NCBI GenBank assembly: GCA_013375475.1
Contig: JABXKD010000003.1
Location: forward strand, 1-64,000
From: Promethearchaeota archaeon
Lineage (GTDB): Archaea; Asgardarchaeota; Lokiarchaeia; Sigyniarchaeales; SOKP01
DNA length: 64,000 bases
Reading direction: 5' to 3'
This document shows positions 28,972 through 36,729 of the stretch, piece by piece. Position 1 is the stretch's first letter, and each line of letters begins with the position of its first letter. The notes beneath the pieces are model-generated. The model saw only the letters and a list, made by a program, of their open reading frames with translations, was not told where the DNA came from and made no database searches. The position numbers and the translations under genes are program-made.

Positions 28972-29844
28972 TTAATCGGTGCCTTCTCCAAGCCCCAATT
29001 GCGAAATCATCATTTTTTTTAGTTCTAACTTATTTTTAGGCAATCCAAACATGTCTGCGTACTTATCAGTTGTGCTTAATTCAGCCGATCTTCCCTTTTT
29101 TACAGCTGTTATTAAATCATTATCTAATAAGTATTTTACATGCTCGTAAGCCCCACTACCTCTTATTTTAATAACCGTTGATTTTAAAATTGGTTGTTTT
29201 AATGCAATTACGGTAAGAGTTCTTAAATAACGCTCAGCAATAGCACCTCCTTTAGCAAATTTGGAAACTGTTTCTGTAAGTTCAGGTCTTAGCTGCATTT
29301 GATATTTTTCTCCAATTTGAGCAACAATTAAAGCACCTTCACGTTCTAAGTAGTCAAAAGCAACAACTCGTACAAGTTCTTCGACTTCTTTTTTCGGGAT
29401 TTCTAATTTAGTGGATAATTCCTCTACATCTAAAGGCCTACCGGCGGCATAAAGAGCGCCCTCTATGAGATTCCTTCGAAGTATTTTTGATTGCAATTCC
29501 AATTCTTCTTTGGTGAGCTCTTGAGGTAATTGAGATTCGGTAATATCGTCGCTTTCTAGACCCGTTTCTTGTTCGTTTAAACCTTCTTCTGAGGAATCGA
29601 GGCTTATTGAATCTTCCTTCTCAACATTAAATTCTTGTTCAACTATTTCTTGGTTATCATCTTCTTCAAAATCATCTTCAAGAAATGCCTCTACAGTTTC
29701 TTCTAGTTCTCTATCTATTTCATTAATCTCAATATCCGTTTCTTCTTGAATAGTCTCTTCATCAATATTTTCGTCCATAGGTAAAGCTTCTTCGGTTTCG
29801 GGTTTAATTTGATTTTCTTGTATTTTTTCATCTTTTTCGTTCAG
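28972..29844 (-). CDS. scpB: Condensin kite subunit ScpB, probable CTG start
   Basis: ScpB is the winged-helix kite subunit that clasps ScpA in the SMC complex. Conserved core segments are EGALYAAGRPLDVEELS, the paired winged helices, and ERYLRTLTVIALKQPI with the SKFAKGGAIAERYL region. The first ATG (29778) has no ribosome-binding site. The frame is open upstream to a stop at about 29853, and GGTGAT (29850-29855) lies 5 nt before a CTG at 29844. That start gives 290 residues with a longer acidic N-terminal tail (about 110 residues rich in Glu/Asp before the core). It follows scpA by 29 nt under this start. Confidence 0.88.
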   Translation of the reverse strand: MNEKDEKIQENQIKPETEEALPMDENIDEETIQEETDIEINEIDRELEETVEAFLEDDFEEDDNQEIVEQEFNVEKEDSISLDSSEEGLNEQETGLESDDITESQLPQELTKEELELQSKILRRNLIEGALYAAGRPLDVEELSTKLEIPKKEVEELVRVVAFDYLEREGALIVAQIGEKYQMQLRPELTETVSKFAKGGAIAERYLRTLTVIALKQPILKSTVIKIRGSGAYEHVKYLLDNDLITAVKKGRSAELSTTDKYADMFGLPKNKLELKKMMISQLGLGEGTD

Positions 29845-29873: not shown

Positions 29874-30881
29874 TTAACTTTTTAAATTTATTGAGAAGTT
29901 CTTAAAATCATCATCCTGATACAGTTCTAACTTATTACCCGTCGAGAGGAACATTAAGGCTAGAAACATACGTACAAAAGCAAATTTCTTGCCAATTTCG
30001 CTCTCTTCTTCGGAATTTATAATTTTAGCTATTTCAAAAAAAGATGTTTCCTTATCGTCAAGTTTTATCTTGGATTTGATGCGATTAAACCAAGATTCAT
30101 GCAATTCTTCTACAGTTTGATCCCTTCCGCTGATATGCTTCAAAAGTTCTTTTGGTAGTTGAGCTTTAGATTTCACTTGAATTCGCTGTTCTTTTAATTC
30201 ATCTCTTCTCATTCTTCTACGCTTTAGTTTCTCTTTGTTTTGCATTGTTTCAATTATAGCGGACCTCATAGCATCAAACAATTCATCTTTAGTAGATATC
30301 AACATTTTAGGTTGAATAGGTTGAGCTAAAGTTTTAGGTATTGATCTACCATGTCTTTCCCTAAAACGTTCTAGCTCTTCTTTTTTCTGAATTTGTTCTT
30401 CTTCTCGAATTATACTAGATATTTTGTAGTGATGCAAAACTGCAGAGGTTTTTAGAGCAATTCCTGAAATCTTGTAATTGATTAAATCTTCGTGAAGCAT
30501 ATTATTAAAGAATTTATCTACTAATGAGGATAAGTCATAAAATGCAACATTGGACTCTTTCGCTACTTCTGGATCCAATAAGCTAGAATAGGGAGGTTTT
30601 TGCCAAAATTTTAGCTCCACCTTTTCTTTGTGGAGTAATGCAGGATCCTCTTCTACACCAGCAATCAATTCCTCTTCTAATTCCTCTTCCACATCCTCAT
30701 CCTCTTGAGTTCTATCAACAAATTCGGGGTGAGATGAAATTTTTTCTATAAGCTTTATAATTTCATTCTTCTTAGATTTAGTAGGAATTTTTATATGATT
30801 CTTGCTTGCAAAATCTCTTAAGTCTTTGACTGTCCATTCACTAAAGTTATATTTTTTCTCCTTACTTTCATTCTCTGGAAT
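29874..30881 (-). CDS. scpA: Kleisin ScpA with N-terminal SAP-like domain, probable ATT start
   Basis: ScpA is the kleisin that bridges the SMC heads. The kleisin N-terminal domain is about residues 100-190 in this numbering (PPYSSLLDPEVA, FYDLSSLVDKFF) and the C-terminal winged helix about 265-330 (KETSFFEIAKII). The first canonical start is GTG at 30692. The frame, however, is open 63 codons further, and this extension encodes a SAP-like helix-extended-helix (EWTVKDLRDFASKNHIKI). No ATG, GTG or TTG occurs there. An AGGTG sequence (30889-30893) precedes an ATT at 30881 with the same spacing seen at scpB and rnp2. With that start the protein has 335 residues. The gene lies 26 nt after smc. 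Confidence 0.82.
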   Translation of the reverse strand: MPENESKEKKYNFSEWTVKDLRDFASKNHIKIPTKSKKNEIIKLIEKISSHPEFVDRTQEDEDVEEELEEELIAGVEEDPALLHKEKVELKFWQKPPYSSLLDPEVAKESNVAFYDLSSLVDKFFNNMLHEDLINYKISGIALKTSAVLHHYKISSIIREEEQIQKKEELERFRERHGRSIPKTLAQPIQPKMLISTKDELFDAMRSAIIETMQNKEKLKRRRMRRDELKEQRIQVKSKAQLPKELLKHISGRDQTVEELHESWFNRIKSKIKLDDKETSFFEIAKIINSEEESEIGKKFAFVRMFLALMFLSTGNKLELYQDDDFKNFSINLKS

Positions 30882-30907: not shown

Positions 30908-33900
30908 TTAATTTTCTTCAATATTAGTTGGCACATCCGGGAGTTCAAGTAACCTTTTCGCTTCTTCTTCTAAATCTACGCTAAAAATGTCGGTTATTCC
31001 ACTTTGTTGCATAGAAACTCCATAAATTCTATCGGCGTTCACAATGTTTTCTTCTCTATGACTGATTACCATAAATTGCGCTTGACTTGCAAATTCTTTT
31101 ATAACTAAGCTTACTCGATGTACATTTGGACCATCTAAAGCAGCATCAATCTCGTCCATAATGTAAAAAGGTGCGGGATAAAATTCTTGAACTGCAAATA
31201 TAAATGATAGGGCAACTAAGGTTTTTTCGCCGCCGCTCAGTATTTCTAAACTCGATATCCGTTTTCCCCGAGGACGGGCTTCTATGCTACACCCTCCCTC
31301 AAATGGCTTATCTGGACGATCTAATATCATTTTCGCTGAACCTCCAGGAGATAATTTTTGGAAGATGCGCGCAAATTCTCGATTTATCTCGTGATATGCC
31401 TTCATGAAGGTTCTAGTTTTTTCTAACTCAATTTTATCGATCGCGTCAAGAATTGATTTCCTTTCACGTTGAATTGTTTGTCTTCTCATATCGATCTCGT
31501 CAAAACGTTCCTTAACGGTGTCAAATTGTTTTATTGCCTTTAAATTGACTGGTTCTAAAGCTTTTTTCTTGTTATCGGCTGTAGAGATATCTGATTGCAA
31601 TCCAGATTCAGATAAATCGGTTGTAACTGGAGGTAAGGCGCCAAAATCTTTAGAACGTTGATATAAGGTCTCTATTTGATCAGTTGTTATGATTTTTTTA
31701 GATTCATAATTATTTAGCTTAGAATTTTCCATCGAGTGATCGGCTTTTAAATCATTTATCTGCTTTTGGTAGTTCTTTTGCTTTTTCCACGATAAATCTT
31801 TTCCCTGAATTTCCTTGTTTATTTCTTCTTGTTTAATATTCTTTTTAGCGTCTTCTTGTTTCAGTTCGAGTTCAATTTTTTCGATATCTTTTAGTATAGA
31901 TTCGATCTGTTTTTCAGTGGTCTTTACATCTTCATTTAGTGAAAGAATTTTTTGCTCTCTTTCCTTATTTTTGTTTAATTCGTTAAGCTTCGCTTGAGAT
32001 TTTTGAAGATCTTTATTAAGTTTATTTAACTCTTTCTGTGCTTTCTTTTGGCCCTCTAGCTCTTTATTTTTTTCTTCTCTTAAAGAATCTATTATAACTT
32101 GCACATCATCGACCTTTTTTTGCAACCCCTCAAGCTGAGAATTTAAATTTTCTATATCAATTTTACATTGGTTAACGCTATTGTTTGCTTCAACATTTTC
32201 TTTAGTTAATTCATCAATTGAATTGATAACCATCATTACATTCTCAAGTGCTCTTAGTTTATCCATTGTTATTTCTAATTTCTTATTTTGCTCGTCGATT
32301 TGTGCTCTAAGTTTTTCAATATCTTCCCAAAAAGTATTTTTTTCTAAATCCTTACCCTCAATTTTCACCTTTATAGCATCTTGTTCAAGTTTAAGGCCTT
32401 TTATGTTTTCTTCAGTAGTGGTTATAACACTTTTCTTATCGTCAATAGTAACATTCAGTTCTTGAATATTATTTTCAATTTCAACAATATTTTCATAATA
32501 AGTTTGAATTCCTTGAAGTTCTTGCAAATTTATTTGTAAATTGTCTAATCCCTTTTGCTTTAATTCCATATTATCTTTGATTTTAGATATCGTATCCCAA
32601 TAATCTTCTTTAGTTTGTTTTAGATTATTTATTTCTTCCTCAAAATTTTCTTTTTGCTTTTCAGTTATGACAAGGTTTCTTTGATTTATTTCGTTTTCAG
32701 ATTTATCAACTTTTTCATTTATTTCACTAATTCTTTTATTAACTTCTCCTAATCTTCTAGTACTCACTGCCAGATCTTCTGAATCGTGCTTATTTTGAGT
32801 GTTTATCCTCGTTAAATTTTGATCAATAACATTTAAGTCGTTATTCTGAGAATTGATATTTTCTGTGATTTCTTCAAGTTGTTTGTATAATTCCTGAGAT
32901 TTTGACATGGTTAGTTTTCTTAGAGATAAATACACATTTTCTAAGATTTCCATTAAATCTTGGACGAAACTATCAAATGTTGAGGTAGACTGCTGTATCT
33001 CTACATCTGCAGATTCTTTTACGTTATCTATTAACTGATCTATTGTTGTATCGACATTCTCAGTAAAGAGGGTTAATGTTTGAAGAATTGATTTGAGGGT
33101 TTCAGACATTTCAGAGGTTTCAGATTTTTCTTCCTCTTCGGCTTCTGAGCTTACATCTTCAACAGTTTTCATGATATCAACTATATCCAAGACAAACTGT
33201 TTGAAGTTAACTGCGGATGTTTCAATTGCCTCTGCGTTTGATTGTTGAATATTACTTTTTATCGACTCAACGGATATGTTGATGTTCTGAGTCAACATAT
33301 TTAAAATCTGTAGAATTCCGGTGACATCCTCAGTATTTCGTTCATATTCTTTTTCTGTGTTTTCAATTTTAACTAACAAATTATCTTTCTCATTAGAAAG
33401 CTCTCCCATACGTCTCTGAATGTTTTCTTTTTTAGCATTAAGTTTTTGTGATTCATCTTCAGTCTTTGTTAAATTTTCACTTAATGTAGAGGATTTTAGT
33501 TCTAAATCGCGCTTTTCTCTTTCAAGATTTGTAAATTCTTTTTTTTGTAATTTTAATTTAGTATTGATATTTTCAATTTTTGTCTTATTATCATAGATTT
33601 CTGATTCAACTGAATCTTGTTTCATTAAAAGTAGTTCTAATTCTTGCTCGTTTTTTCTATAAATAGAATCTTCTTCTTTTATTTTAGCCTTATAATTATT
33701 AATTTCTTTAAGGAAGGAATCTCGCTCCTTTAATAACTCTTTTAAGACATCTTCCGTATCTTTTCCCTTACTTAATTCTTTAATTTTATTCTCAATTGCT
33801 ATTTTATTAGAATTAAGTTTTTCTATTCTGTTTGTGTTCATTGTAATTTCGGTATTTAGAGAGGATAACATAGATTTGAAATCAGCTATTTTCGAATTTA

Positions 33901-35371
33901 ATTGGGTGTTTTCATCTCTTAAACCATTTATCAATTTCTCTAATTCTTTTTGATTATCATTTTCTTTGGAAATTTTTATATTTAATTCGCTTATATCTTT
34001 TCTTATTAATTCAGCTTCCTTATTGGTATTATTTATTGCTTCCTCAACACTTTCTGACTCTCCTTTCAATTTACTAAGTTCAACTTCTAGCTTGTTTTTC
34101 TTATCTTCATTTTTCTTTACATTTTCCTTTAAAACTTTAATTTGAGCTTTATTCGATGAGATATTCTGCTTAATTGTCGAAATTTCTCCTTTATAACCGG
34201 ATTGAGTATCATTATTATTTTTTATATTTACATCAATTTCGGCTTGTTTCTGTTGCTTAGTTTCAATTTCACCCTTAGCGCTTTCAATTTTATTCTCTGT
34301 TTCAGTTACGTCTTTTGATTCCGATTCAATTAACGAATCGTACGTTTGACTTTCTTCAAGCACCATTTGTAGATTTTCTAATGTTTTTATCTCTTGAGAT
34401 ATCTTGTCTATTGATTTATTTGCTAGATTTAAAGATGTTTGATTTGAAGATTGCTGAGTCTTAAATTGAGTGACATTTTCATTAATTGCTTCTCTCTCTT
34501 TCTCTTTTTCAGATATTGTTTTTTGAATATTTTCCATTACTAACGATTCTTGCTTTAAAATTTCATCTTGTCTCGTTATTTTTTCTTGCAATTCTTCTAT
34601 AGCTGTGTTAGATTCTTCTATTTTTGCTTCTAATTCATTTTCTTCTTTTCTTAATTTTTCAATCTTTAAAGCAATTAATTGAGCGTTAATAAGTTTGATT
34701 TGTTCGTCTAATTCCTTCCAAACTAAAGCGTCATTTTTCTCCTTTTCAACTTTTTTTAATTGAGCAGAAACCTCTTTAAAAATCGCTTCAAATTGTCCGA
34801 GATCGCGTTCTGCTTTCTCTAACTCCTTCATAGTTGCATCTTTCATCTCATCGTATTTCTGCAACCCTATAAGATCCTCAATAAAAACTCTACGAGCTTC
34901 AGGATTCATATGAGTTAACTCTACTATTTTTCCTTGAAGAACGAATTGATTACTACCATCAGGATCTACATTTGCGGTTGCAAGAGCGTTAAGAATTTGT
35001 TGTCTAGTAGCTTTTTTACCGTTCATTTTATATCCTCCGCCCCCTCCTCTTTGAATTGTCCTAGTAACTTCAAAAGTATCGGTTCCACCTGGAAAAACCT
35101 TTTCGGAATTATCGAAATACAAGGTAACTGATGCTCTATTTGAAGGATTTTTACCTCGAGAACCAGCAAAAATCAGATCTTCAAGACTTTTAGCTCTCAT
35201 AGTTTTTTTACTTAACCGACCCAAAGCAAACGTTAAAGCGTCAATAATATTCGATTTACCAGCCCCGTTAGGTCCAACAATACAGGTAAACCCAGAAGAG
35301 AGCCTTAATGTCACTGTACGTTCGCCAAATGATTTAAATCCGGTCATCGAGATTTTTTTAATATAAGTCAA
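30908..35371 (-). CDS. smc: Chromosome condensation ATPase SMC, hinge replaced by tandem helical repeats
   Basis: A 1487-residue SMC ATPase, longer than the usual ~1170-1200. The head is complete: Walker A GPNGAGKS (33-40), the Q-loop region NQFVLQGKIVE, signature LSGGEKTLVAL and Walker B FYIMDEIDAALD. Two coiled-coil arms of about 510 residues each connect the head halves to the centre. The centre carries no canonical hinge: there is no glycine-rich globular domain, and also no CxxC zinc hook. Instead residues 686-738 and 762-814 are two related helical repeats joined by an acidic linker at the exact midpoint. The start is TTG, overlapped by the stop of a possible 8-codon upstream ORF. scpA and scpB follow in one operon. 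Confidence 0.97.
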   Translation of the reverse strand: MTYIKKISMTGFKSFGERTVTLRLSSGFTCIVGPNGAGKSNIIDALTFALGRLSKKTMRAKSLEDLIFAGSRGKNPSNRASVTLYFDNSEKVFPGGTDTFEVTRTIQRGGGGGYKMNGKKATRQQILNALATANVDPDGSNQFVLQGKIVELTHMNPEARRVFIEDLIGLQKYDEMKDATMKELEKAERDLGQFEAIFKEVSAQLKKVEKEKNDALVWKELDEQIKLINAQLIALKIEKLRKEENELEAKIEESNTAIEELQEKITRQDEILKQESLVMENIQKTISEKEKEREAINENVTQFKTQQSSNQTSLNLANKSIDKISQEIKTLENLQMVLEESQTYDSLIESESKDVTETENKIESAKGEIETKQQKQAEIDVNIKNNNDTQSGYKGEISTIKQNISSNKAQIKVLKENVKKNEDKKNKLEVELSKLKGESESVEEAINNTNKEAELIRKDISELNIKISKENDNQKELEKLINGLRDENTQLNSKIADFKSMLSSLNTEITMNTNRIEKLNSNKIAIENKIKELSKGKDTEDVLKELLKERDSFLKEINNYKAKIKEEDSIYRKNEQELELLLMKQDSVESEIYDNKTKIENINTKLKLQKKEFTNLEREKRDLELKSSTLSENLTKTEDESQKLNAKKENIQRRMGELSNEKDNLLVKIENTEKEYERNTEDVTGILQILNMLTQNINISVESIKSNIQQSNAEAIETSAVNFKQFVLDIVDIMKTVEDVSSEAEEEEKSETSEMSETLKSILQTLTLFTENVDTTIDQLIDNVKESADVEIQQSTSTFDSFVQDLMEILENVYLSLRKLTMSKSQELYKQLEEITENINSQNNDLNVIDQNLTRINTQNKHDSEDLAVSTRRLGEVNKRISEINEKVDKSENEINQRNLVITEKQKENFEEEINNLKQTKEDYWDTISKIKDNMELKQKGLDNLQINLQELQGIQTYYENIVEIENNIQELNVTIDDKKSVITTTEENIKGLKLEQDAIKVKIEGKDLEKNTFWEDIEKLRAQIDEQNKKLEITMDKLRALENVMMVINSIDELTKENVEANNSVNQCKIDIENLNSQLEGLQKKVDDVQVIIDSLREEKNKELEGQKKAQKELNKLNKDLQKSQAKLNELNKNKEREQKILSLNEDVKTTEKQIESILKDIEKIELELKQEDAKKNIKQEEINKEIQGKDLSWKKQKNYQKQINDLKADHSMENSKLNNYESKKIITTDQIETLYQRSKDFGALPPVTTDLSESGLQSDISTADNKKKALEPVNLKAIKQFDTVKERFDEIDMRRQTIQRERKSILDAIDKIELEKTRTFMKAYHEINREFARIFQKLSPGGSAKMILDRPDKPFEGGCSIEARPRGKRISSLEILSGGEKTLVALSFIFAVQEFYPAPFYIMDEIDAALDGPNVHRVSLVIKEFASQAQFMVISHREENIVNADRIYGVSMQQSGITDIFSVDLEEEAKRLLELPDVPTNIEEN
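32930..33316 (-). repeat. Tandem intragenic repeat at the centre of SMC
   Basis: Codons 686-738 and 762-814 of smc encode two segments that align without gaps. The paired starts are ILQILNMLTQNINISVESIK and ILQTLTLFTENVDTTIDQLI; the paired ends are NFKQFVLDIVDIMKTV and TFDSFVQDLMEILENV. Roughly a third of positions are identical and most others conservative. The acidic linker (about 743-757) sits on the protein midpoint, where the fold-back of the coiled coil is expected. Confidence 0.85.
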
Positions 35372-35535: not shown

Positions 35536-36729
35536 TTAATGCTTATTAAAAATTGCATCCACAACGTGCTTTAGATTTTGAGGATTAATCACCATAAAGT
35601 AAAAGCTGTAATTTAATATGTTTTCGTTGAAATATCTAAAATCGTTAATGAGGGATTTTTTTGAAGCATTTATTATTCCAATATTACGCATAGTTGTAAT
35701 TAAATGTTTGAACTCCTCTTCATTTTTTTCAAAATCGATGGATTCACATGATACATGATATAGTTCCTTTAATTCGTCAATAGTTACATAATAATTTGAT
35801 TTTTTTAAGAAGTAATTAGATAAATTATCTAGAAAAATCACAGTTAATAATTCTGATTCAGAAATATATGAAAGCATGCTAAACTCGTCTGTAATTTGAA
35901 GAGATTCAAATTGGTTTTGAAGTAATTCAAAGATCTCTAGATGGCTCAATTCTACTTGCTTACTTAAAAATGGATAAAGATCTCTAAGAATTTCAATTCC
36001 TTTTCCAGGTACAGGAACATGGTGTTCAAAGATTAAATCTGTTATAAATTCAATCAAATCTTTATCTACTTCATGTTTGAAAGTTAACCAAATTCTTTGT
36101 TTTATAATCTCGTGGAGCTCTTTATACGAAAAATAATTTAGTTTCTTTTTAATGTCGAACTCACTTAAAATATCTAATGTGGATGTCTTTAAAATGTGAT
36201 TTCCAGTAGAAACTAAGCTAATATTGGTTTCTTTTCCATACTGAAGAAATTTCTTAAAATATTCCGGTTGTAAATGCTCGATGTTATTGAAAACGAATAA
36301 AAGTTGGTAATCAGCTTTTTTACATGTTAATTTAAAGATGCTCCATAAATCAGAGATACTAGAGTTAATAATGCTCCTAAAATTGAAATTCATATTCTGA
36401 TGAATACCAATTTCAGATAGGAGAGAAATAATTATTTCCTCTAAATTTTTGTCTCTACAATCTACATAAGCCTTACGGAGATTTAAGAGCTCGGGGTTTA
36501 AAAGTGATAAATCTCTAATAACTTTATTTACAATAACTTTCTTTCCAATTCCCTGAATACCTTGATATAATATGTTTAAGCAAAAGCCATCCTTAAAAGA
36601 GTCTTTTAGTATTGAAAATAGAGAATTCTCTTCGTTTTTTCTATACAGAATTTGAGGTGGGATATAAGATTGATCAAACAATGCTCGAGGCCCAACAAAA
36701 CTCCCATTAGTTTTTTGTGCTGATATCAT
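35536..36729 (-). CDS. Degenerate Orc1/Cdc6-family AAA+ protein
   Basis: The 397-residue protein has the layout of archaeal Orc1/Cdc6. It shows YIPPQILYRKNEENSL (the entry to the AAA+ domain), an AAA+ core to about 270, and a C-terminal winged-helix region (about 300-397). The nucleotide motifs are damaged. Walker A is GIQGIGKK (57-64), with lysine where Ser/Thr should be. Walker B is LFVFNNIEHL (144-153), with both acidic residues replaced by asparagine. The sensor 2 region (GKGIEILRDL) also lacks the usual arginine. It probably cannot hydrolyse ATP, though it may still bind DNA or nucleotide. It sits between smc and a nitrilase gene. Another STAND/AAA+ ATPase is the main alternative. Confidence 0.65.
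   Translation of the reverse strand: MISAQKTNGSFVGPRALFDQSYIPPQILYRKNEENSLFSILKDSFKDGFCLNILYQGIQGIGKKVIVNKVIRDLSLLNPELLNLRKAYVDCRDKNLEEIIISLLSEIGIHQNMNFNFRSIINSSISDLWSIFKLTCKKADYQLLFVFNNIEHLQPEYFKKFLQYGKETNISLVSTGNHILKTSTLDILSEFDIKKKLNYFSYKELHEIIKQRIWLTFKHEVDKDLIEFITDLIFEHHVPVPGKGIEILRDLYPFLSKQVELSHLEIFELLQNQFESLQITDEFSMLSYISESELLTVIFLDNLSNYFLKKSNYYVTIDELKELYHVSCESIDFEKNEEEFKHLITTMRNIGIINASKKSLINDFRYFNENILNYSFYFMVINPQNLKHVVDAIFNKH

Follow-up and report, generated by a model that had tools for sequence, protein, structure and literature searches.

The window analysed here is a stretch of DNA of 64,000 nucleotides from a Promethearchaeota archaeon (assembly GCA_013375475.1, contig JABXKD010000003.1). 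SMC proteins are ring-forming chromosome organisers, and a globular hinge normally connects their two halves. On the minus strand of the window, an SMC ATPase of 1487 residues without a canonical hinge is encoded at 30908..35371, as assigned by family models. The genes of a kleisin, scpA (29874..30881; family profile against 6ivh), and of a kite subunit, scpB (28972..29778; PF04079, 1e-32), lie beside it on the same strand and make up a genuine Smc-ScpA-ScpB operon, as had been proposed in the preliminary description of this DNA. An Orc1/Cdc6-like ATPase gene (35536..36729, minus strand; profile match 2qby, E 3.6e-8) is located directly upstream of smc in most genomes of family f1, to which the window belongs, and most of these genomes encode a single ScpB.

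The SMC protein comprises an N-terminal head with Walker A (residues 1–215; 34727..35371, minus strand), an N-terminal coiled-coil arm (residues 216–672; 33356..34726, minus strand), an apex module that substitutes for the hinge (residues 673–830; 32882..33355, minus strand), a C-terminal arm (residues 831–1250; 31622..32881, minus strand) and a C-terminal head with signature and Walker B (residues 1251–1475; 30947..31621, minus strand). The head motifs are complete as first described, with GPNGAGKS at position 33, LSGGE at 1378 and FYIMDE at 1402, and all three are kept in the 26/26 aligned orthologues as well. SMC_N matched the protein with 4e-44 and TIGR02168 with 577.7 bits, above the cut-off of 567.35; TIGR02169 gave 589.4 bits, below its cut-off of 729.4. 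The best Rad50 family model reached 96.8 bits at a cut-off of 1087, MukB-family models gave no match in the family-model searches, and the PDB structure closest to the N-terminal head is the Smc head 5xei (E 2e-58).

Both arms have nearly fixed lengths. Every aligned f1 or f2 sequence has an N-terminal arm of 457 residues and a C-terminal arm of 420–422, and the arms of the f4 SMC count 361/332 residues. Compared with the canonical paralogue L070, the arms of the window-type SMC are longer by about 90–140 residues per side. The near-constant lengths agree with the length constraint to which the Smc arms of Bacillus subtilis are reported to be subject (PMC5344682).

A canonical hinge is absent from this protein. 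The hinge family PF06470 remained unmatched over the whole protein at E≤10, and its sole match in the genome is another, distant SMC gene (C212, 1161 aa). Hinge HMMs built from relatives and run with all filters off matched none of the hingeless SMCs (domain E values of about 0.5 at best), and the same models detected the hinges of canonical SMCs, of the ~1160-aa paralogues and of the sister group in which the hinge has diverged (E 3e-7 to 5e-11). Together, the Pfam and relatives-built models rule out a hidden or displaced hinge. Derivation of the module from a hinge found no support either: hhalign of the module against the hinge profile gave a probability of 0.1%. Likewise, a zinc hook at the apex was rejected, because no CxxC occurs in the module of any of the 27 aligned sequences. 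Residues 660–830 of the window protein were correctly noted as nearly free of glycine; they contain one glycine, no cysteine and no CxxC.

The apex is built from two tandem repeats instead. Positions 32930–33316 encode residues 686–814 of the 1487-aa protein, with repeat 1 at residues 686–738 (33158..33316, minus strand), repeat 2 at residues 762–814 (32930..33088, minus strand) and between them an acidic linker (residues 739–757; 33101..33157, minus strand) placed on the midpoint of the protein. The ungapped alignment of the repeats described earlier was reproduced with a BLOSUM score of 88 and 16/53 identical residues. This score was equalled by 0/20,000 shuffles, nor did any of some 17,600 arm-segment pairs drawn at random reach it; among the non-overlapping pairs of 53-mers within residues 200–1180, the repeats, counted together with the adjacent registers, rank first. 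When profiles of the repeats from 27 sequences were compared, hhalign returned a probability of 98% (E 2e-13); control segments of the arms gave no comparable alignment. Judged from these sequence comparisons, repeats 1 and 2 are homologous. They are richer in ILMVF (0.34–0.37) than the arms (0.24–0.26), which fits a tip that would pack against more than one helix. The module bears a net charge of −14 to −23 in all members, as against −4 to +6 for hinges. Phmmer and profile searches of the PDB yielded only generic coiled coils as sequence relatives of the module, and a viral fold library returned mostly long coiled-coil or unnamed proteins, none of them informative.

Structure prediction of the tip was performed with AlphaFold2 on a single chain of residues 600–900 with an alignment of 35 sequences. 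In the resulting model (mean pLDDT 84.7, pTM 0.46) the segment is helical throughout, and no hinge fold is predicted. The chain turns at the acidic linker to form a hairpin, and a helix break in repeat 2 adjoins the invariant Asn772. The top Foldseek matches in the PDB were chemoreceptor hairpins of Thermotoga, with the long helical hairpin 2ch7 as the best fold match (E 1.4e-3, TM 0.36–0.44); coiled coils of Smc and the elbow of MukB were also among the best matches, and no isolated SMC hinge was among the 50 matches listed. All of these matches are weak, and long helical hairpins resemble many structures; the fold comparison provided no evidence for homology of the tip to chemoreceptor hairpins. 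Chemoreceptor cytoplasmic hairpins dimerise as four-helix bundles.

The module was found by profile search in 67/228 Asgard genomes, nearly all within one order, and a comparison with the smc genes of other Asgard genomes showed that it is conserved across this whole order. It occurs throughout families f1, f2, f3 and f4. Full-length orthologues exist in nearly all genomes of the window's family (57–91% identity); orthologues in f2 are about 43% identical, and the f4 orthologue is shorter (1308 aa). When the two most conserved peptides of the module were used to query genomes from 84,980 prokaryote species, 56 relatives were retrieved, of which 55 are labelled Lokiarchaeota or Lokiarchaeia and one is a contig binned as Hodarchaeota. 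This 8.6-kb contig, JAEOTC010000276.1 (L153/L147), carries smc-scpA-scpB; its SMC nests inside the Lokiarchaeota family f2, which points to misbinning or recent transfer. One weak match to the module (E 1e-5), located within the frame of a cysteinyl-tRNA synthetase (G030:C49), was judged to be due to chance. Besides the heads and the head-adjacent coil, the repeats are the most conserved part of the protein, with a mean identity of 67–76% compared to roughly 40–55% in the central arms, and the linker between them is variable in sequence across the family. That the architecture reflects an assembly artefact, a pseudogene or a misread hinge is highly improbable: the window does stem from a draft metagenome-assembled genome with an estimated contamination of 6.4%, yet more than 60 genomes share the architecture with open frames and constant lengths, among them the single-contig genomes G042 and CP070805.

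In a tree computed from the concatenated heads of Asgard SMCs only, Rad50 not being included, the hingeless SMCs formed one clade with support 100/100. Its sister group (97/97), drawn from different families within the class, consists of SMCs of 1189–1198 aa with a diverged hinge, and both groups are placed among hinge-bearing SMCs. By the simplest account of this nesting, the hinge was lost and the module gained once. None of the 24 genomes searched from the window's genus shows a canonical hinge with a strong score, and the remaining hinge matches are weak and belong to the ~1160-aa paralogue; some genomes of f1, f2 and f4 additionally keep a canonical SMC of about 1196 aa. In many Asgard archaea, which are relatives of eukaryotes, there seems to be no Smc-ScpAB complex other than the hingeless one.

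Other SMCs of these genomes deserve a short description. The window's own genome encodes a second SMC of about 1160 aa with a weak hinge (L072:1426-6089, on C212). Downstream of it lie two short genes, whose products of 215 and 171 aa are candidates for its kleisin and kite subunits; next to a relative of this SMC in G042 there is a weak ScpB match. An SMC-type protein of 1260 aa (L165:2736-6518, G053:C109; TIGR02169 581 bits, below cut-off) has no hinge match and carries CKTC at its midpoint (LPTEFCKTCPHVKEKK). This motif may represent a zinc hook carried by an SMC, contamination of the source genome being conceivable; the Pfam zinc-hook family did not match the protein, and this type of apex was found in one genome only, G053.

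The module also exists in proteins other than SMC. Four f2 genomes (loci L148, L149, L150 and L151) encode proteins of about 930–1040 aa, for example at 997-4122 of L148 and 1912-4692 of L151, and a fragment was found in a fifth. These proteins carry two modules, at about residues 71–216 and 340–467, and no SMC heads, so that the module is a domain able to exist outside SMC. The AlphaFold2 model of a natural two-module protein, intended as a stand-in for a dimer, is all helical (pLDDT 74, pTM 0.44), with a turn and a helix break of the first module at the equivalent position and a packing between the modules that cannot be read from it. One may therefore ask whether the SMC tip is a docking site for another protein, such as a two-module protein that would bridge two SMC tips. 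The existence of this protein in four genomes, one version having a weak match to an HC2/histone-H1-like lysine-rich tail, would suit such a role, and a tip that binds a partner would be equally conserved. The protein was found in f2 only, however, while the SMC module extends through all four families, and no gene of the two-module type is among the conserved neighbours of smc; we consider docking unlikely.

The ScpA proteins of the hingeless systems showed a further peculiarity. Window ScpA alone has little similarity to PF02616, and the profile of its family matches solved ScpA 6ivh (6.5e-5) and, weakly, kleisin C-termini. The mechanically predicted open reading frame begins with GTG at 30692, and in the window and its orthologues conserved coding reaches further upstream than any ATG, GTG or TTG. 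Where some orthologues have an ATG, the majority carry ATT, ATA or GTT, in many cases with a GGTG(A) motif a few bases upstream. This suggests that scpA in these orthologues may use a non-standard start codon, which in the window is probably the ATT at 30881.

In all ScpAs examined from hingeless systems, the kleisin part is preceded by an N-terminal extension, whereas the four ScpAs compared from beside hinge-bearing SMCs begin almost directly with the kleisin fold. The extensions listed for the window (30744-30845), L137, L029 and L062-L065 differ by lineage. For the majority of f1, the window among them (30744..30845, minus strand), the extension is helix-extension-helix (HeH)/SAP-like (Pfam Ish1, 7.8e-7, above cut-off), in L137 it is a HhH domain (HHH_5, 3e-13), in L029 a weak C2H2 match (E 0.02) was obtained, f2 has lysine-rich tails, and no recognised domain was found in the f4 extension (L067). 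Several of them thus resemble DNA-binding domains, as far as sequence matches indicate.

How the two chains are joined at the apex can be considered in the light of these results. A rod-like SMC without apical dimerisation, whose chains would be held by the heads, ScpA and the zipping of the arms and whose module would merely close the coil, is in keeping with a predicted tip that carries on the coiled coil up to a short turn, and a cluster of hinge-less SMCs has been described from Actinobacteria (PMC12153180). Against this, no other part of the protein outside the heads is as well conserved as the tip, whose hydrophobic content also exceeds that of the arms. Moreover, bacterial Smc requires hinge dimerisation and is non-functional when it is abolished (PMC5344682). 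We regard the rod as distinctly unlikely.

We rather favour, as a fairly probable explanation, that the hinge was replaced once by the repeat hairpin and that two chains pair at its tips. In the ancestor of one Lokiarchaeota order, the hinge of a canonical Smc-ScpAB would have been swapped for an acidic, all-helical hairpin. The tips of two chains would then pair, probably as a four-helix bundle to which each contributes two long helices, and the paired tips would keep the dimer joined at the apex as a hinge or the Rad50 zinc hook does. The hydrophobic repeats, the fold matches to chemoreceptor hairpins and the two-module protein lend indirect support to such a dimer. The preliminary description had proposed a helical module as a new dimerising hinge; the repeat-built helical module at the apex and the missing hinge are borne out, and dimerisation stands as the probable reading given here. 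With less confidence than for tip pairing, we propose that some DNA contact of the hinge was transferred to the N-terminal appendages of the kleisin (SAP/HeH-like, HhH, zinc-finger-like or lysine-rich tails) because the apex had become strongly acidic; the evidence for this is correlative, with appendage types that vary among lineages. A wider reading would combine an order-wide natural swap and a new class of SMC apex with compensation by DNA-binding domains, gained several times by the kleisin N-terminus, and with an exported module that joins tips; taken as a whole, it is tentative, being possible rather than probable.

It has long been asked whether the hinge is a mere clamp or serves in addition as a gate and binding site for DNA, and engineered chimeras have so far been used to approach this question. 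If the module dimerises, folding, opening and DNA binding of the hinge would be dispensable for a working SMC complex, and the hinge-bearing paralogues in the same genomes permit a test of this dispensability by comparison. The hinge type had been considered undescribed. This holds for the module, as a literature search that mostly lay outside subscription papers found neither a report of it nor one of Asgard SMCs that lost the hinge; hinge-less SMC homologues as such were already published in 2025 from marine Actinobacteria (PMC12153180).

In comparison with known systems, the Asgard protein resembles prokaryotic Smc (TIGR02168/TIGR02169, PF02463) in its head motifs, antiparallel long arms, smc-scpA-scpB operon and head phylogeny, and differs from it by an acidic helical tandem-repeat hairpin at the apex in place of the PF06470 hinge. 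With Rad50/SbcC and ClsN/ASRP it shares an SMC-like head combined with another apex where a hinge would be, but it has no CxxC hook, its head is of the SMC type, and kleisin and kite genes are part of its operon. The hinge-less SMCs of marine Actinobacteria likewise possess heads, a long coiled coil and neither hinge nor CxxC; in the accessible part of their description the cluster is reported as hinge loss and no replacement module is described (PMC12153180), and by this description the Asgard SMC with its conserved repeat module, encoded in an archaeal Smc-ScpAB operon, is set apart. B. subtilis Smc carrying the Rad50 zinc hook as a hinge supports normal growth in rich medium (PMC5344682), and the hook of yeast Rad50 can be replaced by the MukB hinge (PMC6969161). 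As in these chimeras, a foreign dimerisation domain would replace the native one in the Asgard SMC. Hinge swaps were previously seen only in such laboratory constructs, whereas the swap in Lokiarchaeota is natural, order-wide and brings in a different domain.
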